Assembly: GCF_964204645.1 (NCBI RefSeq)
Contig: NC_134027.1
Span: 661,501-725,500, forward strand
Direction: 5' to 3'
Length of the DNA stretch: 64,000 nucleotides
From: Tubulanus polymorphus
Taxonomy: Eukaryota > Nemertea > Palaeonemertea > Tubulaniformes > Tubulanidae
The first letter of the stretch is position 1, and every line of letters begins with the position of its first letter. Below, one piece after another: positions 1,752 through 61,595 of this stretch. The notes below the pieces were generated by a model. That model did no database searches. It was given only the letters and a program-made list of their open reading frames with translations, and was not told the DNA's origin. The translations under genes were made by a program, and so were the position numbers.

Positions 1752-1821
1752 TTCTTGCTTGCAAGTCGGGAGGCGTCTCCGGCGGGAGGGGTGCGCTGCT
1801 GCTGCTGCTGCTGTTTGACAA
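1752..1821 (-). CDS. Left exon 6
   Basis: Acceptor tatttatag, 70 nt, donor gtaagt. It encodes a short Ser run followed by APLPPETPPDLQAR and ends in phase 1. Only about two substitutions separate it from the right copy, unlike exon 5. Confidence 0.55.
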
Positions 1822-2031: not shown

Positions 2032-2070
2032 ATTTAGAGATGGAGAATGCGCAAGGCGACCGATATGACC
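2032..2070 (-). CDS. Left exon 5, hyperdivergent 39-nt microexon
   Basis: Acceptor tttcatttctag and donor gtaagtatcag match the right copy. The 39 nt encode GHIGRLAHSPSLN, against RQFASEAGSPSLN on the right. Twenty of 39 bases differ, including synonymous third positions in SPSLN. The 30 bp upstream differ at one base, and about 100 bp downstream match. Confidence 0.65.
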
Positions 2071-3984: not shown

Positions 3985-4011
3985 GTCCACGTGCTGTATC
4001 GGTGATATGTT
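3985..4011 (-). CDS. Left exon 4, 27-nt microexon with broken donor
   Basis: Acceptor ttatctttacag, 27 nt encoding NISPIQHVD. The donor reads taagac instead of gtaagac (one G deleted). The first two codons differ from the right copy (DL). Flanking intron sequence is almost the same in both arms. Confidence 0.55.
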
Positions 4012-4227: not shown

Positions 4228-7200
4228 AAGGGTGTATGCGACAAATAAGGAAAATACAGTTAATTTCCCTGTTTTCGGCTTAAATTTGAAGTAGATGAAA
4301 ACCTGTTTTCTTTGAATTGAAGCCACGGGAACCACTTAACCTCATTTTCAAGCCGGCTTAGAATTGGCGATGTTGGGTTATTATGTCATTGATTTGCACA
4401 AAACGGACACCAGTATAATCAAATTCCCATCCTCGATGGCAAGCGTTTCCAAAAACCCAGCAACAGTGAGTTCCGGGAACTCATTTTGACATGGAATGTC
4501 GGAATCCAAGCCTTCGATAATTTCCCATCTCCACCGTGACCCGATAGACTCAATTACTCAAATAATTTGCGGACCTCCCATTTTGACACGACATTAAGAA
4601 TTCAAAACCCGCCAAGGAATCGACCACGAAATTCAATTAATTCAATTTTTAATACATGAATAAAAGTTAACCGGTAGGAAATTATACGGAACAATTATCA
4701 TCTTACCCACGTACGTGTATATATATACCCAGCATTATAGATATTATTGAAGTTTTCAGTTAAACAAGCCATAATAGAATTTAGGTGACATGAACTACTA
4801 CCAAAAAATAAGCTTTTCATCTTATTCCTAAAGGAACTGGTTCAACACAAATCAGTTATCTATTTTGTTACTAGCATGCAAAGCAAAACATTCAAATGTT
4901 CAAAAACATTTAAATTTTTGATATATTCTAAATGTATTGTTTGCTTTTATTTCTATTAACGGAATTGATGAAAAAGTTGTTTAGCTGAATCGCAGTATCG
5001 TCTCGCAACTGGATCTTTTATGACACAGTGTATTATACTTTTTCCACTTTGGGGTTATTTTCTAAGTGATTCACAATACGCGAGCGGATAGTGATGGTGA
5101 TTGAATACTGATTAAAGATAAAATGTCAGCTCTTTAATCTGTATTAGTGTATATGCCCATATAATAGCTAGAAAGGACATATGCAGCAAATAATCACGAA
5201 TCTGAGGATGTTCAATGTATACACTGACTTTTAAGTGTTCTTAATATCCAGCAGTGATGTATAGTGTGTGTATTATTGAAGTCCGTGTCCATGTGCAATA
5301 GGTATTATCGAGTAGACGGAATGGCCTGGTCGCTTTCGGTCTATGTGGCTTTATGTTGTAATGTTACGGAATTATAAATAAAATGCTCTAGTATAGGCCT
5401 ACAAAGAAAGTCTTTATAGCGGTCAAATGCATGGTCTCGAAGAAAGAGTGAACCATGCGAAAGTTATTTACAAAATAATGTGAATTATCAGGCCATGGTA
5501 GTAGGCGGCATTGCAACTGATTCGAAATAGTCGTGTCATCATTAAGAAATATCACATTTAGATTAATAGTTTTAGCCGGTGCTCGTGGTAATTCTGATGC
5601 GAGAATGGTGTGATAAGATTAAACCAAATGATATTTTAATTTTCGTGTAGTGATAACAATTGGTCGTTTGATTCAGTTGTTCATTTTCTTGAAAATAGAA
5701 ACCCTTATAGAACTCAGATGGAAAATCTACTATGTTAATCCACTAGTTTAAGCAAGTTTCGTTTTATCTAAATAATATATTAATATATTTAGTGTAGTTT
5801 CGATCACAATGAGTTAAATTAGATATGATTATCATTGTTATGAGAATGAGGCAAATTAGGTTGGACTTATGATCGGACGTTCCGGTTTCATACAACAAAA
5901 CAAATAGAATGGATATTCTATATCATGAAAATATATCAAATATGTGAAACAGTTCGCATTGACACGATGCAGTGATATTAATGAGCTATTTGTTCTATTG
6001 ACGTTGACCATGAACATGAATAAAGGTACTTAAGTACCAGCAGAACAGTTTTTAGTCTTTGAACAGTCTAACTTAACTAAATGATATTTTCATTTAGGTA
6101 TCTGCTTACAGCGTTCTATTTTCTTGTTTTGAATAATTTTTTGTTTCATATTGGTAGCGACGTATTGGTTTGATGTCTGCTCGGGAATTCTATTACTGAC
6201 GAAATAGAATTACCTCCAGTTGAAGAATCAACTTATAGTATTTGAAAAAAAAGATTTTAACGCCTGATTCATAAGTCCTCATTCAATATCTTCTGATATC
6301 TGTCTCATAATCGGGTAAAGCATTTAGTATAGGAGCAAACCTCACGGGTTTCAAAGTCCTGAAATAGGCTTTTGAGATCGGAATCGCTGTCGCCATCTTG
6401 TTATCATTTTAATACCGTCAACATTATTTAGAGCTTATGTTCATCTCTTATTTATTTGGCGTGTCCCTACAAACCCACCACAACTGCCGGGACTGAATTA
6501 CGGGCTCAGAATTTGAAGTCAAAATTCGGGGTAACGAATATTCTATGTATGGATTATCGCAGATTCACTGAAATTTCAGTTTATATAAAATATCCAGTTA
6601 AGAAATTCCAGTTCAGTAAATAATTCCATTCAACCTGCACCAGCAAGCAACGATCTGGGGCTTTTAGTGTCGGCATTATATAGGCCTACATTGACATTCT
6701 GAAATAACTGAGCCATATTGACTGCATATTTTCTGCTCTCGTTTTCAACGAATAAATAGTCAGAAAGTTACTATTAACACATGACACTAGGCACGCTATG
6801 GTTAACATAATATTGAATTCGACCAGTCTACTGCGACACAGATTAAAGGTATCAGTAATGAAGACTAGTTATGAAAAATAGGGTCCGAGTGCTGACACCT
6901 ACACCCTAAATTCTAGTAAAGAAATTATTTTTTCATGTGGTCCAACCAGTATTTGATAAATCTATGCCAATGAACCTACAGAAAGATAGATCGCATAGGA
7001 AACAGTTTAGGTGATGGTCTCACTGTATAACCTATAGGGTTGCTAATGTTCACCTATTGATGACGATCGTTCAGCCGCTCTCAAGAGCTCTCAAGAATAC
7101 TTAGTTCTAATCCATCCCAAAATGAATTGGGCCATTTCTATTGAAGCCTTTTACCTTATACAAAAACAAGAGGATATCGCCATAGTTGCACCATGGGCTC

Positions 7201-9220
7201 GCTATAACAAAAACAACTGAGGAGGTCAATAGTCAACAGGATCTAATATTCGGTACTCTGCTATGCACTTAAAATGGACCTACGAAAATCCGAATACATC
7301 TCTACATTTCGTTTCATGTCTTGCGAGAAAATAGGAAAACCACACTATCAAAAAACGATGATGTCTTAAATGTGCAATGAACACCTTTAGGCAAATACTG
7401 ACCTTCAAATTCAAACATTGTATTTATAGATTAATAATACAACATACGATATACATCAATACACATAATTTAGTTATCGGGCCCATTGCAGGTCTACGCA
7501 ATCTGATATTATTTGAATATGTATTTATAAAGGAAGATGACGCGTTAACACGGTTGTTGATTGATAAGCGTGAGTCTATCTGGGTAACGGGTAATAATCC
7601 GCCACATAAACATCTAGCACTTCCAAATTTAATTTCATAACATGTTAATCGATGATTCTCATCTTGATTAAGAAAAACATATATCGATGTTACTATTTCT
7701 ACGGAGCACTAGATGATTGACGGTTATCCCTTCAAAGTGTACTATGAACGCCAGCGAAGCGCACGAATCATTTTAAGGATTGATAACTTGATATTTTGAT
7801 TCGAGGAGTACGAGTTGTTGATTAGATTCGAACCTCAGCCCATAGAGCAAAGACCATTGGCTAATTAAGGTCACGTGAAAATGGATAATTTATATTTAAC
7901 ATTAATTCAATGATTCTACATACATATATTCCTCAACACCTTTGTGAAAAAAATTATCCACGGGTTTCTAAAATATTGCATTTTTCCACTATTTGACAAT
8001 CTCTGCAGTATGCAATCCTTACTTCGAATTAAATACTACGATCAGAATTACAATTTCATAACCTTGTTTATCAACTCTAGGTGACAGTGACCAAATGATA
8101 ATTGAGAATAATAAAGAATATTGTTTCTGAAGTATACTTCAGAAACAATATTGCTTGGGGTATGTTTTCGATTGAATTCGATTAATTCGCCATATAAAAC
8201 AAAAGCGATCAGACCATTTTAGTACCCCGATAATACGGATTTAGGCACGGGTATTTGTGCGGGCATCATCATCTCCATATACACATGATAAATTATTGCT
8301 GGAGATTTATAATAAAAGTCAAAGCACTGATGCAGCATTGTAGTAAAGATTGACTGTTTATTTCCTGACGCCCGTTATTGCCTATAGGCCTACACAAGAA
8401 TGGAGATCAGATGAAATGAAGTCCTGTCATTCAACCAAACGGATATTCAATTAATTTCGTTAATAAAGAAGCAAACAAAACTAAAGAAATAAAATCATTT
8501 CTTTGACAGAATTTGAACTTGGACCTTGAATGCTTTGTTTTGCACACACCCAGCTACTAACAAAATAAACAACAGTCTGTATTGCCTATTGATTCATTGC
8601 GCATGTAGTGACGTCATTGTAGTGTATAATACTATTTCTCGTGGTTTTTATTGGGAGGTTGGAAAATAAATGCGCTTACACTCTGCAAATATGTTTTATA
8701 CTCTAGTCTATCAAGCATCAGAATTTGATAAAGTAACTTATCTATAATAATTGTGACTTTCATAATTACGGAACTTTGTTCCAGGTTTTGGAACCTAAAA
8801 TTTCGATTGTTATAATATGTTTAAAAAGATGTATAGTGTACAACCCACTGATTAATGAGGTTTCAATTTAGGTTTATATGCAGTGGACCTAATAATAGTA
8901 ATACAAAAGATAGAATAGTTTTTTTTGGAGTTTTTCTTTTGGATTCCGACATTCCATGTCAAAATGAGTTCCCGGAACTCACTGTTGCTGGGTTTTTGGA
9001 AACGCTTGCCATCGAGGATGGGAATTTGATTATACTGGTGTGCTTTTTGTGCAAATCAATGACATAATAACCCAACATCGCCAATTCTAAGCGGGCTTGA
9101 AAATGAGGTTAAGTGGTTCCCGTGGCTTCAATTCAAAGAAAACAGGTTTTCATCTACTTCAAATTTAAGCCGAAAACAGGGAAATTAACTGTATTTTCCT
9201 TATTTGTCGCATACATGCTT
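4228..9220. mobile_element. 5 kb non-autonomous long-TIR DNA transposon
   Basis: Ends are inverted repeats of about 282 bp (4,228-4,509 and 8,939-9,220) starting near TGTATGCGACAAATAAGG, with few mismatches. The target ctgt(a) is duplicated at 4,224-4,227 and 9,221-9,224. The right arm has the uninterrupted site at about 22,890. No transposase-like frame is visible inside; the largest frame (7,377-7,640, 87 codons) has no recognisable feature. The interior is AT-rich and otherwise featureless apart from a 36-bp palindrome. Superfamily not assigned. Confidence 0.9.
8117..8152. repeat. Perfect 36-bp palindrome inside the transposon
   Basis: An 18-bp sequence starting aatattgtttctgaagta is followed immediately by its exact reverse complement, with no loop. 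Confidence 0.9.
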
Positions 9221-9376
9221 CTGTAGAGATAGCATCATTAATATATGACTTCTACGATGATGACACTTAATCGAATTTGAATTTATTCCTAATTAGCATA
9301 ATTTATGCAAAACAGCTACTGCCCTCTATTTTCAAATTACAAATTGAAATAAGCGTGATTTATAAGAAAATAGTTT

Positions 9377-9420
9377 GGCGTAGTAGGCAGCGAACCGCTG
9401 GGCGGCGTTGACGGCAAAAA
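9377..9420 (-). CDS. Left exon 3, donor deleted
   Basis: Acceptor attttcag, then an open stretch starting FLPSTPPSG. The right copy has gtaagt directly after ACGCCG; here about 9 bp covering the donor are gone and the sequence runs straight into intron sequence. There is a 3n length change and several substitutions relative to right exon 3. Confidence 0.55.
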
Positions 9421-9979: not shown

Positions 9980-10063
9980 GTCAATCCCAGACATGGAAAT
10001 GTTAAAACGTTTTTGCTGTTGCTGCTGTTGTTGTTGTTGTTGTTGTTGTTTTTTTTCAGTTGT
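9980..10063 (-). CDS. Left exon 2, polyglutamine
   Basis: Acceptor cttttatag, 84 nt, donor gtaagt, phase 0-0. It encodes TTEKK, 12 Gln (CAA/CAG mixed), then KRFNISMSGID. It is a second copy of the tail of left exon 1. Compared with right exon 2 it differs in the ends and the Gln number, although both flanking introns are almost identical between arms. Confidence 0.6.
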
Positions 10064-10236: not shown

Positions 10237-10356
10237 GTCGATCCCAGACATTGAAATATCAAAGCGTTGTTGTTGTTGTTTTTCAGTTCTGTTATTATAG
10301 GGGCTCAATGTTGAGGGCCCCACGCCCCGAGTTTTTTTCATTGCTTTTGGCATTAT
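10237..10356 (-). CDS. Left exon 1, fused with a polyQ exon
   Basis: Acceptor ttgtttttctag, then ATA and ATG, 120 nt open, and donor gtaagt after a phase-0 codon. The encoded start is MPKAMKKTRGVGPS and the end is QQQQRFDISMSGID. It unites in one exon what the right arm splits between 20,815-20,880 and 22,038-22,130. The junction is exact at codon level (AAC AGA here, AAA|AGA there). The start is basic with no signal peptide, suggesting an intracellular protein. Confidence 0.6.
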
Positions 10357-10425
10357 CTAGAAAAACAAGTAAAAATATTAAATCATTTGAAAATATATCA
10401 GTCAGTCTTATTCTGGTTCAATGAA

Positions 10426-11690
10426 CTAATTCTCTATATGATGCATTTAGGGGTCCAGGGACACCACATCCACTAATTCTCTATATGATGCATGTAGGGG
10501 TCCAGGGACACCACATCCACTAATTCTCTATATGGTGCATGTAGGGGTCCAGGGACACCACATCCACTAATTCTCTATATGGTGCATGTAGGGGTCCAGG
10601 GACACCACATCCACTAATTCTCTATATGGTGCATGTAGGGGTCCAGGGACACCACATCCACTAATTCTCTATATGGTGCATGTAGGGGTCCAGGGACACC
10701 ACATCCACTAATTCTCTATATGATGCATGTAGGTGTCCAGGGACACCACATCCACTAATTCTCTATATGGTGCATGTAGGGGTCCAGGAACACCACATCC
10801 ACTAATTCTCTATATGATGCATGTAGGGGTCCAGGGACACCACATCCACTAATTCTCTATATGATGCATGTAGGGGTCCAGGGACACCACATCCACTAAT
10901 TCTCTATATGGTGCATGTAGGGGTCCAGGGACACCACATCCACTAATTCTCTATATGGTGCATGTAGGGGTCCAGGGACACCACATCCACTAATTCTCTA
11001 TATGATGCATGTAGGGGTCCAGGGACACCACATCCACTAATTCTCTATATGGTGCATGTAGGGGTCCAGGGACACCACATCCACTAATCCTCTATATGGT
11101 GCATGTAGGGGTCCAGGGACACCACATCCACTAATTCTCTATATGATGCATGTAGGGGTCCAGGGACACCACATCCACTAATTCTCTATATGGTGCATGT
11201 AGGGGTCCAGGGACACCACATCCATAAATTCTCTATATGGTGCATGTAGGGGTCCAGGGACACCACATCCACTAATTCTCTATATGGTGCATGTAGGGGT
11301 CCAGGGACACCACATCCACTAATTCTCTGTATGGTGCATGTAGGGGTCCAGGGACACCACATCCACTAATTCTCTATATGGTGCATGTAGGGGTCCAGGG
11401 ACACCACATCCACTAATTCTCTATATGATGCATGTAGGGGACCAGGAACACCACATCCACTAATTCTCTATATGATGCATGTAGGGGTCCAGGGACACCA
11501 CATCCACTAATTCTCTATATGGTGCATGTAGGGGTCCAGGGACACCACATCCACTAATTCTCTATATGATGCATGTAGGGGTCCAGGGACACCACATCCA
11601 CTAATTCTCTATATGATGCATGTAGGGGTCCAGGGACACCACATCCACTAATTCTCTATATGGTGCATGTAGGGGTCCAGGGACACCACA
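10426..11690. repeat. 47-bp satellite, left inner end
   Basis: About 27 nearly identical 47-bp units with core gtgcatgtaggggtccaggg. They begin 70 bp upstream of left exon 1. The same satellite lies inverted at 20,505-20,746. Confidence 0.95.
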
Positions 11691-12484
11691 TCCTCTATTC
11701 TGTTTGGGGCATGGAGATTGCCCAGATTGCCTCTGCTAACAACAGACACCCATTCAACATTTCTCTTTGTGGTACTTTCTTCTTCCTCTTTTCTCTCATT
11801 TTACAAATTGATATTCAACTATGACCTTTTTTATTTTGATATGATGTTTATCTTTACATCATGGTTGCTGGAGATTGTACAAGGAATGACACAAGAAATA
11901 ATATCCTTAGTTTTAAACTCACAGCTGTTTGCAATTCTTTCATTTAATCACAGGTTCAATTGAAACGATGCATTCCTATACATATACGCAATCATATCTT
12001 TTTTCGAGTCATCATTCTCAGGGAAATTTGATCTGCACTCAGGTACAGTCTACTGGCTTGCCAGTTATCCTTTAACTTTTTTACAAAATTATCTTTTCAA
12101 AATGAATTACCATGAAAGCAGTAAATTTGAACTTGCCTTATCATAAGGGGTTTTTCTTTTACTCTTTGTTTTAGCTTTAGGTATCTTTGATTTGCTGGTG
12201 GTTTAAACATGCATGTCGAGGGAGCTCTCAATCCAGGAACAGTCAGCTCACAAGCAGCCCCTGCCCCAAAAGGTTTTGACATATTTTCAAAAGCTCTAGT
12301 TGTTCCGTAGAACCGAGAGCGGAACTCTGACTTGTTCCCCTCACTGTTGAGGTCTACTTTCTCTGATTCGCTGATTGGCTTCTCTTTGGTACATTTTGGA
12401 TGATCAAAAACTAGGAACTGTCATGCGTTTATTCATTTTGGTATATGTTAAAATTATTTTTCCAGTAAAGGCATATTAGGCACA
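11691..12484. other. Loop segment with a diverged exon-1-like copy
   Basis: Mostly AT-rich without a convincing gene. On the reverse strand, about 12,194 down to 12,137 reads IPKAKTKSKRKTPYDK. It is followed by gcaagttcaaatttactgct, resembling right exon 1 (MPKA...SPYNK) and its intron start gtaagtacaaatttactgct. The donor is GC rather than GT. No clear acceptor is visible upstream. Confidence 0.5.
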
Positions 12485-12850
12485 TCAAAACAAATCCGGA
12501 ATTGTCCCCGAACGAAGTGGCTCCCTCCACTCTCCATCAGTATGCCGGGCCACCACCTCTACCTCTCGGGCCACTCGATCACTCGCCAGCTTTTTGGCGA
12601 GTGAACGAGTGACCGCCCGAGATACGGATGGAGGAGCAGGACCCGCACCTGCCCCAGCCCCACCACCATCCCTCTTCGGCCTCTTCCTATTTATCCCATC
12701 CCCTTCCTCCCGATTACCTTCGTCAGCCGCACCATCCGCCGGGACCACTCTTGCTCCTCCTCCCGCGGAGCCACGACGACCGCAACTGGTACTTTTCGGT
12801 TTCTCATGGTTTCCCACCATCTTTCAAAAGAGAACTATCGATATATCATT
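12485..12850 (-). pseudogene. Inverted, frameshifted copy of the exon at 35.2-35.6 kb
   Basis: Reverse strand, 111-codon frame from 12,820. It shares GARVVPADGAADEGNREEG and SRAVTRSLAKKLAS with the exon at 35,244-35,636, with scattered substitutions. One base is missing near the start of the match, so the upstream frame of the intact exon does not continue; the copy stays open only from an alternative ATG. Its stop lies at a different base after PDLF. Homology ends near the 12,891 duplication border. It could be a pseudogene or a re-started short gene. Confidence 0.6.
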
Positions 12851-18186: not shown

Positions 18187-18980
18187 TCGCCACTTTCTTC
18201 CGGTCCACTTACTTCCGCGTTTGTGATTTACATACAAGTAGTTTGAATGTTAAATGTATGAAGCCGCGTGTTGATTGGTTGAGGTCAGTGCGGTTTACTG
18301 AACGATGACCAGCTGTCAGCAGATCGAATCATTCGTTTCACAGACATTACGACGTAAGTATATCTTACATCTTTGATCAAAAATTGTTGTGAAAAAACTC
18401 AAAACTAAGGCCTCTATAAATGATCGATTGACTTTAAATGATTACTTTAGCACAGCTCTTGTAGACAATGATTAGGTGTCATAGTAGTTTAGCTCGAAAG
18501 TGCACATATAAGGTTAATTTTCATCCCTTATTTAGAGACCGAGGTATTGAGCGTCCATTTCAGCCCTTAAAACATCATCAACCTACCTCAAACTGACTGT
18601 TTTTAAATCCAGCAATAGTTACCTAACTATTGACTCATCATGGATTCGATTCAAAAACAATTTTTGATGATCATAGTGATTCGAAACATTTGAATTTTTG
18701 AAAAACGCGAATGCTAAACGACAGATCCGGACTTCGATTGTGGCCCAATGGCAGAGTTGATTTTTTTATTTGGAATTTGAAGATATAAATCACTGAAATC
18801 AATTGGTTTTGCCACCAAAATTAAAATTAAGAAGAATTTAGGATGGAGATGTTTGATTTTCATTTTGTCGAAATGCCGATTTAAAAATTAATTTGATTGA
18901 ATCAAATTAATGAATTCATCATTTCACGATATTATAGATAATCAAAATGTGAATATGAAATCACCTTTTCAATCGCTGTT
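18187..18980. other. Unique loop segment with a possible 5' exon
   Basis: tcttccgg and acttccgc (ETS-like) lie near 18,195-18,215, with a strong donor gacgtaagta at about 18,352. It could be a noncoding first exon for the right gene copy, whose first coding exon has a good acceptor. The rest is AT-rich without features. Confidence 0.25.
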
Positions 18981-20814: not shown

Positions 20815-20880
20815 AATATGCCAAAAGCCATAAAAAAAACACGGGGCACGGGCCCCTCACATTCGAGCCCGTATAATAAA
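20815..20880 (+). CDS. Right exon 1
   Basis: Acceptor ttgtttttctag, then AAT ATG, 66 nt, donor gtaagt. Encodes MPKAIKKTRGTGPS and SPYNK. It differs from the left copy at about a dozen positions, starting right after the acceptor, while about 75 bp upstream differ at one base. Confidence 0.6.
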
Positions 20881-23800
20881 GTAAGTACAAATTTACTGCT
20901 TCCATGCTTATTTATTCATCCAATACTTAGTATTTTGTACCCCTGGGTCCAGTTTCACAAAAAGGATTAACGCCTAAATCGATTTAAGATAAACTGAATT
21001 AATGAAGAAATTAAATCGATTTAAGAGTTAAACCTGTTTGTGAAACTGGGCCCTGAATTGCATCTAGAATGAAAAAAAAGAAAAAAAAATATTGAAAATA
21101 ACGTTGGTGAAATATTTCTGGATCTTTCTGGATTTCTGCTCAATGCATCGTTTAGTAAAATATCGATATTCTCTAAAAGTAAAGATATAAGAATAAAAAT
21201 ATTGTATTGAATCGTGATTAGTTACTGTATGCGCTGCTAGTTGTTGCCCAACCCATAGCCTCATTTCTCTCCATTCTAAATTTGCATTGTTTAACATTGC
21301 CTGGTTGCTATGGAAACTATTTATTTAAGTTTCTTTGTGGTATCCATGGCAACAGTAACGTTTAGGTAGTGGCACCAATTATGGGTCCCAACGTTCCCAT
21401 GGCGATACATGAGAACATTTATCCTATTTTTGACCTTCATGACGTAAGATGGTAGTGAGTCGATGACGTCATTTTCGTCTCACCACTAATGAAAAAAAAA
21501 AAATGAAATGAAAAAAAAGGAAAAAATGGTTAGAATTACGTTTATAAAATTTTTCTGGATCGGCTAAATGTATTGTTCGATTAAATATCGACATTCTCTA
21601 AAATCATAGGCATCAATATCAAAATGATGATACAGCAGACTCCGCTTAACTCTGTTCTATTTGGACCATTAATTAACCGAATACCGACTTTTTAAATTTT
21701 AGGATTTTAACTTTAAGGATCAGAAAATGTGTATGCAATATCAACCGGGTACCGAGTAGGGTGGCCGAGTCTACTGTAGTCTGCTGCCCCCTCGAATCCA
21801 TTACCTTATTATCTCTCAATTTGCATTGTTTGACCTCGTCTGGTTGCTATGGAAACTATTTAGTTATATCAGGAACGGTTTTTTCGAGGTAACCAGTGGC
21901 AACAGGCGTGTCCGTCCTAGAGATAAACTGTCTGATTTCACAGCCACATCCGTCCTGGAGATAAACTGTTAGATAAACTCTGATTTCGCGTCCGTCCTAT
22001 TTCTTGTCATTGTATGAATATGTTTTCTCTTTTATAGAGAACTCAACAACAACAACAACAACAGCAACAACAACAACAACAACAGCAGCAACAGCAACAC
22101 AAATTTGATATTTCTATGTCTGGGATTGACGTAAGTTATCGTAAACGCCTGTTTGAAGTCATCATTCTTGAGCTTGAAACCGAAATTTATATATATAGAA
22201 TATTAAACCCTGCTTCTGCTACTGACAGGTAATGTCCGTCATACATTACTGCATCGTCAAATCTATACCAGGGTGCACCCAGCCTGATCGTTCGCATCAT
22301 CACATGCAAAGGGCTGATTATTTTGGAACCCAGTTTTTATCAGCTGGAACATTCTGCACATTCGACCATATTGATTGATAGCCCGTTATAGACGAGTGGA
22401 GAAAAACTGGAAAACCAGTTCAATGTTACCTCATGGTAAACATAAGGGAATTTCAATGAGTTTAACTCACATTTACAGAGTTTTAACGAGGTTAGACTGA
22501 ATTAACCATTATTCCATCAATGGTGTGTTCTGTCCATCAAGGCTCCTCAGACGCACCGAGCAGTCAAATGCAGCAGTAGCGCGAGGGTCGGGTGTTCTCG
22601 TGTGGGCAGACGGTCCGAACCCCAAAACCATTTACTTACACTATACAAATCAGATCAGGTTTTTAACATTGTCTTTGATTGTATTTTCAGTTTCTGCCGA
22701 CAACGCCGCCAAGCGGTACTTCTACGCCGGTAAGTGATAACTATTTTCTAATAAATCACGCTTATTTCAATTTGTAATTTGAAAATAGAGGGCAGTAGCT
22801 GTTTTGCATAAATTATGCTAATTAGGAATAAATTCAAATTCGATTAAGTCTCATCATCGTAGAAGTCATATATTAATGATGCTATCTCTACAGTTGTCAT
22901 TTAAATTAAGTGTTATATTTACTACTTAATTTGCTTCATGACCCAAAAGCCTCTACTATATAACTACTGGTTTTGTTCTAATCTTGGAGAATTTGCTGCA
23001 AAATTAACTTATCATTCGTTAATCAGTTTTTATTGAAAACCCGAATCAGTGATACATGCATTCATGAATATCCATCTAATATTTTGTTTTATTTTATCTT
23101 TACAGGATTTATCACCGATACAGCACGTGGACGTAAGACATTAAACATTGATCTTGAATTTTAAGTTCAAACTAATTTATTTTTTATCTCACTCGGGACT
23201 ATAGTTATTGCGTTCACTTTGCGTCCAGTTGTCTCGGCTAGTTTTTGATTTATCGTGTTGATAATTGGTTTATATACTCAAACTACTCAAACTCAAAATA
23301 TTGGCACAATTGGAATTAAGATGGCGGACTTGTATGACCATTTTTTTCCCCGGCAAAATCAGCGCTTTAGGATCAATTCTGTTGTTGTTATATTACATTG
23401 AAATCAGAGTTTAATATATATCAGTATAGAGCAGGTTTTTGCTCTAGTTATAAATAAAGTTATAAATAATCTCATGACATGTTCTGTATATGTGTAGCGA
23501 GTTTCAATGTCTTTGGTTCCTTTTAAACCAGGGGGAGTTAAATTTGTAAATGTCAGATCGTCGAGCATTTCAGACCACTTCCAAAGTGGGTCCCTGCACC
23601 CCTAGTTATACCGTTAATATTTTAATAATACATTAATATTTTTATTTGATAGAATATATTGATATACCATACATTGATATCGGTCTTGTAATTGGATCAA
23701 CAACCATGAGATCAAAACACAGCAAATATGAACCTGCTGTGAATCAATAGATTTGTGATAAATGTAATGAAATTGTTATTTTTCATATTGACTTTTTGAG

Positions 23801-26115
23801 TTAAGGGTCTGTTGTATAAGAGTATTTGGTCTCGCGTGTCAATGTATGATATCAATCTGTTGTATTTCCTCGTTCCAATGTTTAAAAGGTGTTCGTCACC
23901 TTATATTAATATCCTCCGTGTTTAAAAACCTGTGCGTATTACTTTTACCGTTAGATGGCGCCATAAGTGTGATATTTGATATATGGGATACCCGCAAAAC
24001 CAGCTATTCCACCAGATGGCGCAACGAGTAGTAGGTCGTTCGTTGTCAAAATTAGTTCATTTTCGATGAACTTTGAACTGGTTTGAAGAAGAAATACTTT
24101 CATTCTTCTACTCTGATATCGGTTTAGTTTTCATTAATAATTGATTCATTTAAGAGAACAATTCATTCAGATTTAATTGAAATGTACAAGAAAATCGAAC
24201 GCAGACGACCAACTATTTACTAGCGACACCTGGTGGATCCTCGCCTGCCATAAGTGGAATCCTCGATTGCCACAGTAAGACTGCGGGTATCCCATTGTTT
24301 GGCGTGTGATAAAGTAAAGTTAGAAAACGAATGTTTAACTTTGTTGTGAAATGAAAGCGTTTTGGAGATTTTTAAACCGATCAAATCAATATTTTGATAT
24401 TACGCTTGAAACCCTTCCCACTCATATTCTGCTTACTAAGTATATATTCTAGTTTCCGTGGAAATCATGGTGAGTGGCGCCATCTATACAGTGGAGTTAG
24501 CTTTATAAATCGAGTATGATTCGACAAGTGGCTCCATCCATTCCCTAATACTGAAGCGAGGTAACCAGCAGCGCCCTCATATACAGGAAATGAACGCCTA
24601 TCAAGTTTAACAATGCACGGTGTATTGACCACAGCGACCGGTGATAATTATATCAATGTTGATTAGCTATTGCCATAGACAGGTCCGTAGCGTTTGACTG
24701 GACCAGAACGGGGCCCCCTAACCAAAACAAATTTTGAAAACGTGCCCAGATAAATTGCCTCTGGGAGATTGATTAACGAGGTTTTGATTGAATGAACAAA
24801 TTTTAATATTTGTAAGTTTAACATTTCTGTTTTTAATTTTTCTTTGTAAGGAACTGAATTTTCGAACCCCCCTGAACCGCTTCAAGCTACGTTCCTGATA
24901 TAGTGCTAGCTATACCTGAATACTTTTCTCTTATTGAAATTGTCTAAAAAACCAGCACCTTGAACTAATGAACGTCATAATGAAAATGTTTAAAAATTCA
25001 ACCGTTAATGAATTTGACTAATGTATCTTTTTTATTTTCATTTCTAGCGTCAGTTTGCCTCAGAGGCTGGGTCGCCGTCGCTTAATGTAAGTATCAGTGA
25101 CGCCCTCAATCTCACATGCCTCACTTCCCTCCTAATGTAACCATTTTTATGAAATTCCTCAAGAAAATATATACTGATAATCTTAGAATACACGTTTTTG
25201 TACCCAGACCCCTTCATTCTACTGAACTACCGTGTAATCAGTACCTGTTGTGTTCATTTTCTGTTGCATTGATTTATATATTATTTCTATTTATAGTTGT
25301 CAAACAACAGCAGCAGCAGCAGCGCACCCCTCCCGCCGGAGACGCCTCCCGACCTGCAAGCAAGAAGTAAGTTCAGTCTTCAAATACAATTTCAACGCAT
25401 TCAATTTTTTGTATGGCGTTAAAACGGTTAAAGTTGTGACTAGTTTTCATAACTCCGTGACGTCAGGTGTGAGACAAAATACAATATCATATTTCCATCG
25501 AGTACCGGACCCTTTCCTATGTTTTTTGCCAATTTGGATTGAATGATCGCCAGCGGTTTTTCTATACGACCCGGCTCTGCTGTATTGCATTTAGCCATCC
25601 TTTTTCTTGGCGTTTTTTATAAGAAGGTGTTTGATTTTGTCTCTAAGGGATTTAGGAATTTAAGAGACACTTGTACTCTCTATGCAGTGAGTTTGTTCTG
25701 TTTTTGTTCCCTCGTGAATTTTATTTTTGTTTGAATCAAATCAAATCAGTGCATCTTTCTTGAATTGCGTGTATGTTATAATATTATGTAAGTTATAACG
25801 TTAAAATATCTGTTATATTTAAACCGAATATTTAATTGTTGTATTTTGAATGCGATAATGCCGCTCCCTGCTAAAGTCCAGCGTCGTCGTCGTGAGGGAT
25901 GCGGTCATCTGTTCGGGCCCTGATTACGTTCTGTGTTCATCCTGTTTGGCTACATCGGGCGTTATATGAGTTAATCCTTCCTGGACTTGCGGATTGTGGT
26001 CGGAAGATCTATGGGTTCGGGCCGAGAAGTCCCAGAAACAGAAAGTACAGTTTCTGTCGATGTACCGATTGATGTCTCTATTTCAGAAAGTAACAGCGGT
26101 CGCCAGCTGTACTAG
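20815..26115 (+). CDS. Right copy of the microexon polyQ gene (7 exons)
   Basis: Exons 20,815-20,880, 22,038-22,130, 22,691-22,729, 23,106-23,132, 25,048-25,086, 25,297-25,366 and 26,087-26,115. Each has a pyrimidine-rich acceptor and gtaag-type donor. All joins are phase 0 except the last (phase 1), and the chain ends in TAG. Product is about 120 residues: a basic start (MPKAIKKTRG), 18 Gln, then Pro/Ser/Thr-rich pieces. No signal peptide or membrane segment is seen. The translation start is inferred as the ATG at 20,818; the acceptor just upstream implies a further 5' exon. I do not recognise the family. Symmetric microexons recall schistosome micro-exon genes in architecture only. Confidence 0.6.
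20881..21888. other. Right-arm-specific intron segment with X-box-like sites
   Basis: Absent from the left arm. It holds a foldback element (20,942-21,055) and a tandem pair of roughly 400-bp diverged units. Each unit has an RFX X-box-like gttgctatggaaac (21,304-21,317 and 21,843-21,856); a ccatggcaac half-site lies near 21,344 and ggtaaccagtggcaac follows at 21,889. Confidence 0.6.
20942..21055. mobile_element. Foldback MITE-like element
   Basis: Inverted ends gggtccagtttcacaaa and tttgtgaaactgggccc, with internal inverted taaatcgatttaa. Related ends occur at 29,750-29,915. Confidence 0.65.
22038..22130 (+). CDS. Right exon 2, polyglutamine
   Basis: 93 nt, phase 0-0: RT, 18 Gln (CAA with CAG interruptions), HKFDISMSGID. 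The mixed codons show the run is not a pure CAG repeat. Confidence 0.6.
22691..22729 (+). CDS. Right exon 3, 39 nt
   Basis: Acceptor gtattttcag, donor gtaagtgat, encodes FLPTTPPSGTSTP in phase 0. Confidence 0.6.
23106..23132 (+). CDS. Right exon 4, 27 nt
   Basis: Acceptor ttatctttacag, donor gtaagac, encodes DLSPIQHVD in phase 0. The donor is intact, unlike the left copy. Confidence 0.6.
23133..25047. other. Intron 4, no further gene seen
   Basis: Nearly identical to the left arm outside the insertion site. Contains several gcgccatct motifs and one gatggcgcaac next to ccaccag, resembling a CTCF-type core, but no coding segment. Confidence 0.5.
25048..25086 (+). CDS. Right exon 5, hyperdivergent 39 nt
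   Basis: Encodes RQFASEAGSPSLN in phase 0, donor gtaagtatcag. Twenty of 39 bases differ from the left exon, whereas the flanks are nearly identical. Confidence 0.65.
25297..25366 (+). CDS. Right exon 6
   Basis: Acceptor tatttatag, 70 nt, donor gtaagt. Ser run, then APLPPETPPDLQAR; leaves phase 1. Confidence 0.55.
26087..26115 (+). CDS. Right terminal exon 7
   Basis: Acceptor gtctctatttcag. In phase 1 it reads SNSGRQLY and TAG. A second frame (KVTAVASC...) is open into the satellite but is out of phase with exon 6, so it is less likely. Confidence 0.45.
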
Positions 26116-26202
26116 CACGGTTGGTTTCCCAACTCCATTCTCTGAGGAGGATCGCTGGTTCTCTAGTGCCGGTCAGTCACCAGTCAATCAATGGTTCAGC
26201 TG

Positions 26203-27087
26203 GCATCCCAGGGTACTGAACATCCAGTCCGGTCCGGTCCAGGCATCACTGGGAACTGTACATCCAGTCTGGTCCGGTCCAGGCATCACTGGGTACTGAA
26301 CATCTGGTCCGGTCCGGCAGCTTTGAGCACCAGTCCATTCCAGACATCACTGGGTACTGAACATCCAGTCCGGTCCGGTCCAGGCATCACCGGGTACTGA
26401 ACATCCAGTCCGGTCCGGTCCAGGCATCACTGGGAACTGTACATCCAGTCCGGTCCGGTCCAGGCATCACTGGCAACTGTACATCCAGTCCGGTCCGGTC
26501 CAGGCATCACTGGGTACTGAACATCTGGTCCGGTCCGGCAGCTTCGAGCACCAGTCCATTCCAGGCATCACCGGGTACTGAACATCCAGTCCGGTCCGGT
26601 CCAGGCATCACTGGGAACTGTACATCCAGTCCGGTCCGGTCCAGGCATCACTGGGAACTGTACATCCAGTCCGGTCCGGTCCAGGCATCACTGGGAACTG
26701 TACATCCAGTCTGGTCCGGTCCAGGCATCACCGGGTACTGAACATCCAGTCCCGTCCGGTCCAAGCATCACTGGGTACTGAACATCCAGTCTGGTCCGGT
26801 CCAGGCATCACTGGGTACTGAACATCCAGTCTGGTCTGGTCCAGGCATCACTGGGAACTGTACATCCAGTCCGGTCCGGTCCAGGCATCATCAGGTACTG
26901 AACATCCGGTCTGGTCCGGTCCAGGCATCACCGGGAACTGAACATCTGGTCCGGTCCGGTCCAGGCATCACTGGGAACTGTACATCCAGTCTGGTCCGGT
27001 CCAGGCATCATCAGGTACTGAACATCCGGTCTGGTCCGGCCAAGGCATCATCAGGTACTGAACATCCGGTCTGGTCCGGGCGGCCTG
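26203..27087. repeat. 40-bp satellite, right arm
   Basis: About 22 units, inverted relative to 52-880. It replaces the unique sequence kept at 886-1,002 in the left arm. Confidence 0.95.
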
Positions 27088-27234
27088 GCATCAATGTTTC
27101 GAATTTGAAACATAGTTATTATGACTCTAGGTTTGGTAGAGGGCGCTATTCTACCAGACGCAGGAGTAAGGTCACCTTCACTGATATCGAGGATGGATCG
27201 AGAGATTATGATTTATTCTGTAGGAACCATCATC

Positions 27235-27725
27235 ATTCATCAGTTCACGTCGAGGGACCGTTTAGGAAGTTCATGTCTTTCACGTCGAGGGACCGTTTAG
27301 GAAGTTCACGTCTTTCACGTCTAGGGACCGTTTAGGAAGTTCACGTCTTTCACGTCGAGGGACCGTTTAGGAAGTTCACGTCTTTCACGTCGTGGGACCG
27401 TTTAGGAAGTTCACGTCTTTCACGTCGAGGGACCGTTTAGGAAGTTCACGTCTTTCACGTCGAGGGACCGTTTAGGAAGTTCATGTCTTTCACGTCGAGG
27501 GACCGTTTAGGAAGTTCATGTCTTTCACGTTGAGGGACCGTTTAGGAAGTTCACGTCTTTCACGTCGAGGGACCGTTTAGGAAGTTCATCTCTTTCACGT
27601 CGAGGGACCGTTTAGGAAGTTCACGTCTTTCACGTCGAGGGACCGTTTAGGAAGTTCATGTCTTTCACGTCGAGGGACCCTTTAGGAAGTTCATGTCTTT
27701 CACATCGAGGGACCGTTTAGGAAGT
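27235..27725. repeat. 35-bp satellite
   Basis: About 14 units of 35 bp with core gtcgagggaccgtttaggaa. Not seen elsewhere in the window. Confidence 0.95.
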
Positions 27726-27973
27726 CGTCACAATAATCGGGATTTCCGTGATTTCGAAAGTAAGATGTTATTGTCATTGTAAGCTACCGCAGTTACAGGT
27801 AAGCCTATTCTTGATTGCCCGGTTAGAAGTTCAGTTATTCGGAATTCTGACTCTGAATTTCTGAGGGGTAGCATCTGATTTCAACGAGGATCTAGTTCCT
27901 GCAGCAATAAGCTTCGGGTTGCCGCTCACAACGGAAGCTCGTAACACGGTTAGCCATGCCTGCAGGGGATATG

Positions 27974-28015
27974 CTATTTTTTACCCCTCAGCCATAGGAC
28001 GCAAGGGGTAAAAAA
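27974..28015. other. Hairpin with 13-bp arms
   Basis: attttttacccct and aggggtaaaaaat separated by about 16 nt. It lies just upstream of the YY1-motif tandem region. Confidence 0.7.
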
Positions 28016-28029
28016 TCACTTATGTCCGG

Positions 28030-28520
28030 ACGGGTGGGCTGTTTGTTTTTGACATATACAGGTCATCCAAGATGGCCGCCACAGCCATTGCAATGTGTTA
28101 AATAGCCATTTGAAGCTTGTTATCGCTCTACAGACTTAAGTTTTTCATTGATTTTCTTGTGACTTGGTTTGTTTGTTTGAGGTGTGAGATGGATGAGCCC
28201 TATTATTTTTGACATATATTGGTCATCCAAGATGGCCGCCACGGTTGTTTTAATGTGTGAAATAGCTATATTTTGGAGCTTGTTTTCCACTGTACAATCT
28301 ACAGTTTTATACTGATTTTCTTATCACGTGCTATGTGGATTGAAGGCATAAGGATCGATGAACTCTACTGTGTTTGATGTGTGTAGGCCACCACAGTTAT
28401 ATCAGTGTCTTGAATAGCCGATTTGGAGCTTGTTACTGCTCTAAGATGTAGAAGCTTAGAGGATTATAATTTTATTCATACTTGTACTGTGGTTTATTTA
28501 TGGTGGTCAGAGGATGAGCC
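28030..28520. repeat. Three diverged ~170-bp tandem units with YY1-like sites
   Basis: The first two units contain ccaagatggccgccac; the third is degraded (taggccaccac). All share gagcttgtta-like and gatgagccctatta segments. Confidence 0.6.
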
Positions 28521-28575
28521 CTATTACAATTTTGCATTCTCTACTTGACTCACTGGTCAAGGGTTAATATCTAGT

Positions 28576-30130: not shown

Positions 30131-30164
30131 TACCACAAACGAGAGGACAGCTAGTTATCGGTGA

Positions 30165-30280
30165 CGCCTGTGGCTAAATGCAATACCGCAGTGCCAGGGA
30201 TCGTATCTCTGGCTATCTACACATTCAGAGAATATTAACTAAAACCATAGGAAAGGGTCAAGCACTACTCCGAAAAAAAA
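30165..30280. repeat. Dispersed repeat shared with the palindrome arm
   Basis: ggctaaatgcaatac and ccataggaaagggtc correspond to 1,519-1,620 in the left arm, with an insertion/deletion between them. Confidence 0.5.
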
Positions 30281-31948: not shown

Positions 31949-32014
31949 CACTGATATTTAGATTGAGTCGTGCGTTCCGGCGGGAGGAGTTCGTACGCTT
32001 ATTTTTACCGGAGT
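31949..32014 (+). CDS. Exon A of the basic-protein gene
   Basis: 66 nt, open only in the frame that continues into exon B; encodes LIFRLSRAFRREEFVRLF and LPE. Confidence 0.55.
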
Positions 32015-35000
32015 GTAAGTAGTTTAACTATTTTCATACAATATCATTTAGTGTGACGTGTGTTACTGATCCAGGAATTTTTCCAAGAGGGGGTTCATAA
32101 TAATCCTGACTTAAATCTCTAATGATAGCCGGGGCCTATACGGCATATTGTTTGGCCAAACATAAGATCATATGGTACCGGTTTTTTGGCTTTTCTCGCG
32201 TAAGCATTTACATTCCTTCAAGAAAACTAATTTTTAGAATTTTTGGTAGCTGATCAGCGGGGTCACGACCCCTGAAACCCTCCCTGGATCCGCGCCTGTG
32301 ATATCTCCTCAAAATCTAATAAAAACATTCAACAAATTAATGCTATAATGACGATATGTAGCCTGTTATATCTGTCTATTTGAATGCATTTGCATAAAGA
32401 AATAGTTGCGGAATTATCAACTGCAAATAACAGTGTAACCCTAGTGGGTCTTAAGAGACGGCCAGAGCCTTTTTATAGGTTGTTATGGCTCACAACCTGA
32501 CTGAGTTAGCTGTACGGACCTGTCAGATTAGTTACTTCTAGAAGTTATGTTAGTCACATTTTCTGACTATATTCTGGAAAACAGTGGAAGCTTGTATCCA
32601 CCCTAGATTAGAACCAATCAGAATAGAACCAATCAGAATAGAACCAATCAGAATAGAACCAATCAGAATAGAACCAATTAGAATAAAACCAATCAGAATA
32701 GAACCAATCAGAATAAAACCAATCAGAATAAAACTAATCAGAATAGAACCAATCAGAATAGAACCAATCAGAATAGAACCAATCAGAATAGAACCAATCA
32801 GAATAGAACCAATCAGAATAGAACCAATCAGAATAGAACCAATCAGAATAGAACCAATCAGAATAAAACCAATCAGAATAAAACCAATCAGAATAGAACC
32901 AATCAGAATAGAACCAATCAGAATAGAACCAATCAGAATAGAACCAATCAGAATAAAACTAATCAGAATAGAACCAATCAGAATAGAACCAATCAGAATA
33001 GAACCAATCAGAATAGAACCAATTAGAATAAAACCAATCAGAATAAAACCAATCAGAATAGAACCAATCAGAATAGAACCAATCAGAATAGAACCAATCA
33101 GAATAGAACCAATCAGAATAGAACCAATCAGAATAGAACCAATCAGAATAAAACTAATCAGAATAGAACCAATCAGAATAGAACCAATCAGAATAGAACC
33201 AATTAGAATAAAACCAATCAGAATAAAACCAATCAGAATAAAACTAATCAGAATAGAACCAATCAGAATAGAACCAATCAGAATAGAACCAATCAGAATA
33301 GAACCAATCAGAATAAAACCAATCAGAATAGAACCAATTAGAATAAAACCAATCAGAATAAAACCAATCAGAATAAAACTAATCAGAATAGAACCAATCA
33401 GAATAGAACCAATCAGAATAGAACCAATCAGAATAAAAGCAATAAATAGTGTTTTTTCTCGAGTAGTTGCCGAAGAAGCATAAAAATTTGATTCAATTTC
33501 ATTCAGATTTAAACAAACAAATCGAATTTCATTTCATTCAGCGCAAACTTCAAATCTAATTAAAATTTTGTTCAGTATGAATAAGTTGCAAATCATTGAG
33601 AGGAAAAAATAATTAATTGTGTTACTTAAAAAAATCACAATTGTGCTGTGTTTATCAAAACAGGAGACCACAGGACCTTTGGTCCTCTAGTATTCTTTTC
33701 CTAGTTATTCCAAAAACACTAAAACAGTCCAATCAGCGATGGCTGCCAGACCAACACGATTACATTGAAATCAAACTTAAGTAACATCAGGCGCCCCCTG
33801 TTGGAATAATATTCATAGCCGTAGCATCGAAACCATTCGACTTGTTGTTTAATGTATTTCTCTCTATTTTTATTTTACAGTTCTGCAAGTTTTAGAAGAC
33901 TGCCCCTTTGAGGATTTGGTGGGGGAATTCAAAAGAAACTTGGTTCCCGATAGGATATTACCACCACCGGTTAATCCTATGTCGCCCGCTGCTGCCCCTC
34001 CCCCACGTCCATTAAATTCGCCTCAGCAGCGGCCTGTCAGACAGCCGCCCCCGGCCGCCACTCGTTCGTCAGACAGAGTCCGGGGACGGCTGTTTGAAGG
34101 AGATCTGACGGAGGTAAGAATCTTTATTTGTTTTCATATTTTATTCAGGATATCAGTTGAAGTTCAGCAAATAAATTACCAGACCTGTAAACAGAAGAGT
34201 AGTTATAAATTTCCATTTGCGGGTAAAACCCCATAGTCGAAAACCTTCGGTTATTGATCTATATCTGCTTAAAAGACCAATGGTTGTACACACGAGTGCG
34301 AAAACTTATCGCTCAAACTTTGATTGTATCCATGGTAACGCGTACAGTATACTATGCGTGACTTACCGTTTCCTATCACTGGAATACAATACTGTTTTAG
34401 ACCATGAGCGCCATCTGCGGCGGTCATAACGGACTGAGTGGTGATTGGCTGAAATGCTCGTCTACCGTGGTGACGATTATTCGGTGTTACACGTGCAGCA
34501 GACACGTCTCTGAATATCTAACATTTGATTGTTGTAACTCATCGGGAAAAATATGTTTATGAGTCGATTTTTTGTCGAAATTTTGTTCGGCAGAAAATTG
34601 GCTGCATACGTCAAGAAGGCGGCTGATATTTGTATCGTGTGACCCCTCGTCCCGGTAATATGCCGACCCACGTACACCTGAGACCAGTTGCATAGTCAGA
34701 GCTTAGAATTAAGACCGTTTTAAGACCAACTTAGTTCTATAGCCAATCTAATAACTTAAGACCAGTCTTTAGATTTAAGACCACTTTTGGACTTAAGTCT
34801 TGACCATGGAATCGGCCCCAGATGCTTATTCCGCTGTATTGGATGCTGACGTGCTCGTGTCTTCCAGCAATGTTGTTATTCACCAAAAATATCATGTTTT
34901 GTTCGAATAACACGATTCATCTGAGTCTGGGTTTAACGGATGACACGTTCAAACAGAACTACGAAATCAATATCAGAAGTCCTTTTATATTGAAACGGTC

Positions 35001-35636
35001 CCAGAAGTCCCTGTTATAATGGGTACTTTTTCAAAAAAAGTAACGAGAACTCCGATGGCTTTCCGTATTCACCGAACTATTTCTATGAGCATCACTCGTA
35101 GATTAACCGAAACGCCACCTTGTGGCACGATATCCTAACTACGTATAGGTGTTTTATTTGCTGAATCGCTGGTTTCTCATTCTGATTTTTTATGTAGTGT
35201 TTAATTTTATACTAAACAAATTTTTCACTTTTTCTCTTTACAGACACGACCACCGCCAAAAAAAACTCGAACTAAAAGGAAAAGAAAAGTTGCGGTCGTC
35301 GTGGCTCCGCAGGGAGGAGGAGCAAGAGTGGTCCCGGCGGATGGTGCGGCTGACGAAGGTAATCGGGAGGAAGGGGAGGGGATAAATAGGAAGCGGCCGA
35401 GGAGGGATGGTGGTGGGGCTGGGGATGGTGCGGGTCCTGCTCCTCCTGCTCCTCCATCCGTATCTCGGGCGGTCACTCGTTCACTCGCCAAAAAGCTGGC
35501 GAGTGAACGAGTGGCCCGAGAGGTAGAGGTGGTGGCCCGACATACGGATGGAATGTGGGAGGAGCGGCTTCGTTCGGGGACAATTCCGGATTTGTTAACT
35601 GATTTAAAAAATATTCTTTCAGTGAAGGGATATTAG
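31949..35636 (+). CDS. Three-exon gene for a basic Pro/Ala/Gly-rich protein (5' end not seen)
   Basis: Exons 31,949-32,014, 33,881-34,113 and 35,244-35,636, with acceptors tgttttacag, tattttacag and tctctttacag and donors gtaagt and gtaaga. Phases agree: exon A enters in phase 1 and leaves in phase 1, B leaves in phase 0, and C runs to TAG. Exon A plus the start of B give a helical, charged stretch (RREEFVRLFLPE, LQVLEDCPFEDLVGEF). The rest of B is Pro-rich. C starts with a nuclear-localisation-like PPPKKTRTKRKRK, then Gly/Ala-rich sequence and SVSRAVTRSLAKKLASERVA. Probably nuclear. No family recognised. An upstream exon is required. Confidence 0.65.
32609..33443. repeat. 15-bp satellite of CCAAT boxes
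   Basis: About 56 units of aatagaaccaatcag with a few variants (aattag, aaaacc, aaaact). Each unit matches the NF-Y core (RRCCAATCAG). It lies in the intron between exons A and B. The 299-codon frame with pentapeptide EPIRI is a by-product of the 15-bp period. Confidence 0.95.
33881..34113 (+). CDS. Exon B of the basic-protein gene
   Basis: 233 nt, open throughout, donor gaggtaagaa in phase 0. Contains LVGEFKRNLVPDR and a Pro/Ala-rich tail with PRPLNSPQQRPVRQPPP. Confidence 0.65.
34114..35243. other. Intron between exons B and C
   Basis: No convincing coding sequence. A short region at 34,700-34,815 repeats ttaagacc-type words (MITE-like). Confidence 0.5.
35244..35636 (+). CDS. Exon C, C-terminal exon of the basic-protein gene
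   Basis: 131 codons including stop. Ends with RSGTIPDLLTDLKNILS and a few more residues. GC-rich against AT-rich surroundings. A related copy lies inverted at 12,485-12,850. Confidence 0.7.
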   Translation, partial: TRPPPKKTRTKRKRKVAVVVAPQGGGARVVPADGAADEGNREEGEGINRKRPRRDGGGAGDGAGPAPPAPPSVSRAVTRSLAKKLASERVAREVEVVARHTDGMWEERLRSGTIPDLLTDLKNILSVKGY

Positions 35637-35689
35637 GTGCCTTGAACGCATGAGTCGTTCATGCGCGCCTAATATGCCTTCACTGAAAG
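35616..35689. other. Long hairpin overlapping the stop codon
   Basis: ctttcagtgaagg-atattagg pairs with cctaatat-ccttcactgaaag (about 25-bp imperfect stem), with an inner cgcatga/tcatgcg stem. The TAG of exon C lies in the stem. Confidence 0.8.
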
Positions 35690-35731
35690 AAAATCAACTA
35701 TAACATGTACCACATATTTTTTGATTTAATT

Positions 35732-61577: not shown

Positions 61578-61595
61578 CTGGCAATCGAACGCCAG
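61578..61595. other. 18-bp hairpin insertion
   Basis: ctggcaatcgaacgccag is present here and absent from the corresponding position in copy 1 (about 15,767). Confidence 0.8.

Follow-up and report, generated by a model that had tools for sequence, protein, structure and literature searches.

Exon-restricted divergence among nearly uniform introns in an arrayed gene family of Tubulanus polymorphus

ASSET-type switching, as set out in one account of toxin genes (PMC2474615), concerns genes whose exons diverge faster than their introns: very different exon segments stand among introns that stay alike, with the provenance of the new segments described as unknown. In conotoxins, according to a second study (PMC3862624), introns are conserved within superfamilies, and in the A superfamily both Dn and Ds are higher in exon 2 than in exon 1 by a factor of 2 to 8. 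Three routes have been proposed for intron loss, one of them through reverse-transcribed mRNA; cDNA that recombined with genomic DNA would leave exact exon-exon joins (PMC3652778). In a further system, locus-specific hypervariability is ascribed to rule-governed editing; there the loci hold single genes, and it is motifs within a central domain that vary. Lamprey VLR genes are flanked by arrays of partial coding cassettes that share short homology with the gene.

The gene family described here, of which no report was found in the literature searched, resembles the lamprey VLR in having partial coding cassettes near the gene, and is known from the sequence of a single assembly. Its hypervariability is locus-specific, like that of the system with rule-governed editing, and unlike that system it comprises many paralogues in which blocks of exon vary. 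It also shares with ASSET-type switching (PMC2474615) introns that are highly similar around very different exon segments; it differs in that pS exceeds pN in most variable exons, the borders lie at exon edges, candidate donor fragments adjoin the genes, and no toxin family was matched. The original prediction had named conotoxin and snake PLA2 genes as precedents, and the pattern is indeed known in snake and cone-snail toxin genes (PMC2474615, PMC3862624). In conotoxins, however, the authors place positively selected sites mainly in the mature peptide (PMC3862624), whereas most exon change here is silent. A further likeness is to CEACAM32, described as escaping concerted evolution, where gene conversion was found in the leader exon and introns but not in the domain exons; unlike what we describe, the available part of that account mentions neither spare-exon blocks nor a silent excess (PMC7042247). 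Exact joins of the kind that mRNA-mediated intron loss would leave (PMC3652778) are found here in spare fragments, whereas complete-looking copies keep their introns. What looks new is the presence of spare blocks and of spliced joins, and the excess of silent change. The family thus offers many copies, sharp borders, a silent excess and candidate donors in the same arrays, two kinds of candidate donor fragment having passed through spliced RNA, and it makes the question of where switched exons come from answerable by long reads from a few individuals.

The whole stretch of DNA analysed, hereafter the window, is the 64,000 bp of C3:661501-725500, where C3 is one of 77 contigs of a 268-Mb assembly. 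It contains an inverted pair of arms, A on the minus strand (from position 1 to about 10.4 kb) and B on the plus strand (about 20.5 to 27.1 kb). The gene copy of arm B, at 20,815-35,636, looks complete, and that of arm A is truncated and inverted. A and B align as the inverted pair that had been described, but the supposed palindrome is a local piece of an array. The fifth coding exon (E5) of arm A, GHIGRLAHSPSLN, of type GHIGRLA (2032..2070, minus strand), differs from its counterpart in arm B, RQFASEAGSPSLN (25048..25086, plus strand), at 20 of 39 bases, from the first exon base onward, and both copies have a TAG acceptor and a GTAAGT donor. Around E5 the arms differ once in 59 bases upstream and not at all in 200 downstream. 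Over 21,878-25,900 their introns differ at 29 of 3,753 bases, and at that rate the binomial probability of 20 or more differences in 39 is 3e-32, a value uncorrected for the site having been picked by eye; the largest number of differences in any non-exon 39-bp segment is 9, at the deleted E3 donor of A. Differences per exon are 13/84 in E2, 7/36 in E3, 3/27 in E4, 20/39 in E5 and 2/70 in E6. Base-by-base alignment of the arms thus bears out the claimed E5 divergence, its near-clean flanks, and a later exon that is nearly identical (E6). It also agrees with the reported contrast of DL with NI in E4 (DLSPIQHVD in arm B, NISPIQHVD in arm A) and with silent change in SPSLN, where four of five codons differ silently.

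When the E5 region was searched against the genome at the DNA level, the best candidates comprised about 30 matches on three contigs. Among the matches listed, C3 carries seven plus-strand copies between 408 and 734 kb, two inverted copies (arm A and its sister L013) and two more, near 1.24 and 1.32 Mb, of which one was hit as two separate pieces; C8 carries one copy and C6 carries 18 near-full copies. Single-unit neighbours on C3 are spaced 43-47 kb apart. A search with E8-E9, in which the best 40 candidates were scored, gave 29 copies, 25 full-length and four in two pieces. We read 8.6 kb of sequence surrounding each of 19 of these matches, among them 9 of the 18 near-full copies on C6, and most of these 19 complete-looking copies have open frames and splice sites; A and L013 are not counted among them and were treated as spare copies. 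E8-E9 was read in 13 of the 29 copies, of which 12 were fetched and seven of these compared with B for pS and pN (NG86 proportions), and E7 was read in 10 copies and three spare fragments. The repeats in E2 led us to omit this exon from the pN/pS, site-type and 171-pair counts; the last of these also omits E6. Gaps were not scored as differences in the exon and intron divergence figures, so the 9-bp E3 insertion of L010, L015, L016, L017 and L018 does not enter them.

On the basis of open frames and splice sites, copy B has nine coding exons, E1-E9, joined in frame on the plus strand. Besides E5, these are E1 (20815..20880), hypervariable in the family; E2 (22038..22130), poly-Q and variable; E3 (22691..22729), FLPTTPPSGTSTP, variable and mostly silently so; E4 (23106..23132), DLSPIQHVD, for which the family has DL and NI types; E6 (25297..25366); E7 (31949..32014), with two types within the C3 array; E8 (33881..34113), whose first 36 bp are hypervariable and whose remainder is nearly constant; and E9 (35244..35636), a nearly constant, basic C-terminal part ending in the stop codon TAG. 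A putative 5' untranslated exon on the same strand (18243..18353, start approximate) is partly conserved upstream of the older C8 gene. This segment, followed by GTAAGTAT, is probably the untranslated first exon, which makes 20,818 the probable start codon of B. The predicted product of about 340 residues has, by eye, a poly-Q tract, short SP/TP-rich exons and a basic KRKRK near the C-terminus. A homology search with the 340-residue protein gave nothing at E 0.001 among the 8,000 scored candidates that share most words with it, solved structures gave two chance-level matches and no convincing relative, a Pfam scan of ten pieces gave one sub-threshold DUF match, and Rfam gave nothing within the window at gathering scores. 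A long, near-perfect hairpin (35614..35691, plus strand) overlaps the stop codon, with a folding energy of -51.8 kcal/mol for 35600-35710 (z -10.2). It is kept in the window copy, in 12 of 12 other E8-E9 copies read and in the C8 E9 copy L045, and is shortened in the spare fragments of L041-L043.

Across the family, young and almost uniform introns surround particular exons in which divergence is large, mostly silent and bounded by the exon borders. Mean pairwise divergence among the seven C3 copies is 0.0038 in introns, 0.122 in E1, 0.068 in E2, 0.064 in E4, 0.024 in E5, 0.015 in E6 and 0.000 in E3, with the 9-bp E3 insertion uncounted. Among the nine C6 copies the corresponding values are 0.0089 in introns, 0.142 in E1, 0.110 in E3, 0.039 in E5, 0.028 in E2, 0.010 in E6 and 0 in E4. 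Between C3 and C6, introns differ by 0.022, E1 by 0.150 and E3 by 0.148 (range for E1, E2 and E3, 0.15-0.16). Equal divergence of exons and introns is not what we find: that of E1, E3, E4 and E5 together exceeds that of the introns in 167 of the 171 pairs formed by the 19 copies. That every exon varies is ruled out, since E6, the E8 tail and E9 are near constant.

Divergence plotted against exon borders, as the original prediction had suggested, steps at the exon edges in the 19 copies. In E1-E5, variation begins within the first four bases of the exon, and the 40 flanking intron bases on each side are nearly invariant. Mean diversity before exons is 0 at positions -1 to -10, 0.013 at -11 to -20 and 0.011 at -21 to -40, and rises to 0.24 in the first three exon bases; the first five bases past the donor show none, and the values from there to +40 are 0.003-0.03. 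E7 and the first 36 bp of E8 show the same border pattern, whereas the E8 tail and E9 do not: diversity is 0 in the 20 intron bases before E8, 0.20 in its bases 1-36 and 0.0055 beyond. Splice signals would account for part of the zero diversity beside exons, but we do not think that they account for 40 bases of it. The older C8 gene matches B at every one of the 46 bases that precede E4, while most of its introns are unalignable. Together with the near flanks of E7 described below, this suggests that exon flanks tend to be more conserved than other intron sequence; they may act as homology arms or as splicing signals.

Silent sites account for most of the exon divergence. For E1, pS is 0.25 and pN 0.08 in C3, and pS 0.34 and pN 0.08 in C6, in arrays whose introns differ by 0.4-0.9%; for E3 in C6, pS is 0.28 and pN 0.04. 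Indeed, pS exceeds pN in E1, E3, E4, E7 and the E8 head wherever these are variable, the exception being E5 within arrays (pN 0.03-0.05, pS 0). Since silent sites diverge most, protein selection alone cannot explain the exon divergence, a point on which the earlier suspicion is upheld by the excess of pS over pN in E1, E3, E4 and E7. Positive selection in an arms race was set aside as sole cause, as pN does not rise above pS in the variable exons other than E5.

The strongest single fact concerns E7, in which half of the silent sites have changed between near flanks without substitution. Type B and the common type differ by eight silent changes in 16.3 sites and four protein-changing ones in 49.7 (pS 0.49, pN 0.08). 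Both types occur within one array, on C3, and they are two amino acids apart, so that protein selection has little hold on them. In a comparison with one common-type copy, the nearest flanks are free of substitutions over 98 bases upstream and 64 bases downstream, though they contain two gaps, one of 1 base and one of 12. Farther out the introns of the two types do differ, at 12 of 450 bases upstream and 7 of 141 bases downstream, before the local alignment ends; the E7 region may therefore be older. E7 type and E8-head type go together in 7 of 7 C3 copies. In the E8 head, L029 is the same as B, and the other six of the seven copies compared have pS 0.38-0.65 and pN 0.21-0.27, whereas none of the 44 silent sites of the E8 tail is changed in any of the seven and E9 has pS 0.01-0.06. 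Thus, hyperdivergent and near-constant exons sit in the same genes. Exchange through cDNA would affect the 3' exons most; the greatest uniformity is seen in the E8 tail and E9, less clearly so in L040. L039, on C8, differs from B at 128 of 1,100 bases of intron 8, with 0 of 44 silent changes in the E8 tail and 2 of 105 in E9, which hints at homogenisation limited to the 3' exons. L040 is not strong support for this, with 57 of 940 bases of intron 8, 6 of 105 silent changes in E9 and 6 of 149 in the E8 tail and E9 combined.

Exon types are mosaics that cross contigs. Types of E1 are combinations of blocks present on both C3 and C6, and polymorphism common to the two arrays is found at 12 of 322 sites in exons and at 4 of 4,579 in introns (Fisher P 8e-12), the last four lying in or beside an A-rich run. 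Fixed differences between C3 and C6 are not commoner in exons (5/322) than in introns (52/4,579; P 0.42). The introns themselves have recombined: about 4.7 kb contain 199 informative sites and give Rm 44, against Rm 3 for the 66 bp of E1. On C3, distances in E2, E4, E5 and E6 track intron distances (r 0.61-0.86) and those in E1 do not (r -0.18); on C6, E1 (r 0.67), E3 (0.44) and E5 (0.35) track them and E2 and E6 do not. Full independence of exon variants from introns is rejected for several exons, which follow intron kinship.

Arm A forms the margin of a block in which exon fragments run opposite to the genes. On the minus strand arm A carries, besides E5, E6 (1752..1821, the exon with two differences from B), E4 (3985..4011, NISPIQHVD, its GT donor lacking the G), E3 (9376..9420, its GTAAGT donor deleted), a second E2 copy (9980..10063), and E1 joined to an E2 copy without intron 1 (10237..10356, exon-exon join at 10290/10291). 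An E9-like fragment lies on the strand of arm A at 12489..12797, and the E8-E9 search, with its best 40 candidates scored, found no full-length E8-E9 beside A, where fragments lie instead. With the E3 and E4 donors lost, A does not look like a working gene. It differs from its near-identical sister L013 by three mismatches in 4,228 bases; their second E2 copies differ in the 5' half although the flanks agree, and one E1 base and one intron base nearby also differ. A 5-kb insertion in arm A at 4229-9220, with inverted ends of about 280 bp that are 99% alike, is absent from L013 and looks like a young transposon.

Such blocks were found on C3 (A, L046, L047) and C6 (L041, L042, L043, L048), all opposing the adjoining genes, and those read contain scrambled E1 to E9 fragments with intron stubs. 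L049 (C8:15156001-15166000) consists of tandem modules of about 2.69 kb, with four E1 pieces and with E5 and E9 pieces between; there, the intron before E5 is conserved and E5 itself differs. Partial coding cassettes with homologous flanks are thus arrayed near the genes. Outside the 19 copies, 57 E1 hits represent 42 distinct exon sequences, a few of them belonging to older genes such as L045; some spare E1 have an intact frame and splice sites, and others have shifts, stops or lost splice sites. Full-length, stop-free spare E1 have pS 0.40 and pN 0.15 among themselves, close to the 0.36 and 0.11 of the genes, and so have not drifted freely for long. One spare E1 of C3, at L046:2595, matches that of L019 (C8) at 66 of 66 bases, with four flank positions different, and another, at L046:2421, is one base from L010 and L011, with six flank differences. 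The best spare E1 read is identical for one of the 19 copies and 1-14 bases off for the other 18, and none of the three spare E7 read is a close match to E7 type B (pS 0.24-0.42).

Several spare fragments lack an intron exactly. E1-E2 joins occur as three distinct sequences (one in the window and L013, one in L041 and L048, one in L041), and an E5-E6 join, exact to within one codon, occurs in L041, L042 and L043. The older C8 gene keeps both introns that the joins lack, so the joins are most simply derived; exact joins where the intron is ancestral are thus found in spare fragments and not in complete-looking copies. Such joins point to spliced RNA written back into the genome. This indicates that RNA copies entered the spare blocks; a rewriting of the genes by such copies would be a further step.

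Two explanations carry most weight, and both of those originally offered, the sparing of old exon differences and the replacement of exon cassettes, survive in part. We favour templated replacement of exon-sized pieces, in gene copies that otherwise share a recent common ancestor, over the long sparing of old exons among homogenised introns, and consider the chances of such replacement about even. Gene conversion would overwrite single exons or parts of exons, the source being spare exon fragments or, alternatively, reverse-transcribed spliced mRNA of diverged family members. A DNA-fragment template could use the conserved stubs, about 40 bp on each side, as homology arms; with a cDNA template the conversion tract would end at the exon edge because cDNA has no introns. 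The evidence for replacement is the spare fragments, the exon-exon joins, the borders at exon edges, the mostly silent divergence, and an E1 common to two contigs at 66 of 66 bases despite different flanks. Against replacement, a donor is lacking for most exon types among the spare copies read, introns recombine too and several exon distances follow intron distances, fixed C3/C6 differences are not commoner in exons, the outer E7 introns differ, and the E8 tail and E9, which are not hyperdivergent, show that not every exon is affected; moreover, a 39-bp exon at 50% divergence would be a poor target for plain cDNA pairing. Under the sparing of old differences, which we regard as possible but less likely than not, frequent DNA gene conversion and unequal crossing-over would keep the introns uniform. 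Conversion tracts would stop at the exon because mismatched heteroduplexes are rejected and because selection opposes the loss of exon types; borders would coincide with exons because the first mismatch stands there. Heavy intron recombination (Rm 44), exon types that partly follow intron kinship, and pN below pS in most variable exons, as expected of old constrained lineages, all fit. However, the near introns must then convert up to the edge of an exon that reaches pS 0.3-0.5, and protein selection has little reason to separate E7 types that differ by two amino acids against eight silent changes. Replacement from a diverged template explains the E7 pattern in one step, where sparing needs long shielding with the edges converted. 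In addition, the 52 fixed C3/C6 intron differences argue against free homogenisation of introns from one contig to another, although exon types are common to both, and sparing leaves the spliced joins unexplained.

The remaining explanations all seem to us remote to some degree. Exon-targeted hypermutation, for example by error-prone reverse transcription followed by selective removal of harmful changes, would put pS above both pN and the introns, as seen, and, with E2 set aside, at least three alleles segregate at 8 of the 46 variable sites in exons and at 2 of the 218 in introns; yet the changes are largely shared blocks rather than scattered private ones, and there is no clear mutation bias (transitions/transversions 24/14 in exons, 128/88 in introns). 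Three C6 copies, L022, L023 and L025, have the same E1, E3, E4 and E5 despite pairwise intron differences of 1, 17 and 18, which favours episodic replacement over steady mutation. A steady exon mutator, the targeted form of which had also been raised, is accordingly judged unlikely, and we consider exon-targeted hypermutation as a whole very improbable. We think it just as improbable that selection acts on the mature RNA, with antisense small RNAs made from the inverted blocks and any exon change aiding escape while introns, being removed by splicing, stay as they are. Silent and protein-changing exon sites do both vary, two variable exon bases precede the probable start codon, and the blocks found on C3 and C6 oppose the adjoining genes, but E9 hardly varies although it has spare fragments, and one spare exon is identical to a gene exon. 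An artefact of assembly or polishing is scarcely credible: multi-copy arrays are hard to assemble, but the same pattern appears in 19 copies on three contigs with frames and splice sites mostly intact, and false polishing with RNA reads would be expected to make exons more alike, not less.

Templated replacement could also take a heritable, exon-rewriting form, in which spliced transcripts of the family would undergo reverse transcription and be written, one exon at a time, into the arrays from which they came. We consider this unlikely. The inverted banks of spare exons would then be stored variants, and the hairpin at the 3' end of the transcript could help to start reverse transcription. 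If true, exons of a eukaryotic genome would be replaced from RNA templates while their introns stayed intact.

Some other features of the window are recorded here. Broken open frames lie at 28549-30200; residues near 29,570, picked out by eye, resemble a reverse-transcriptase motif, so that an old retroelement piece may sit in intron 6. The segment 12891-18186 repeats at 58742-64000 with 97-98% identity, about 45.8 kb further on, which is the array unit. Minisatellites lie at 10255-11850, 26200-27830, 30425-31606, 32454-33450 and 43573-44608, with units in the window of 47, 40, 35, 63, 15 and 46 bp, and the 47-bp array is also present upstream of E1 in the copies read.
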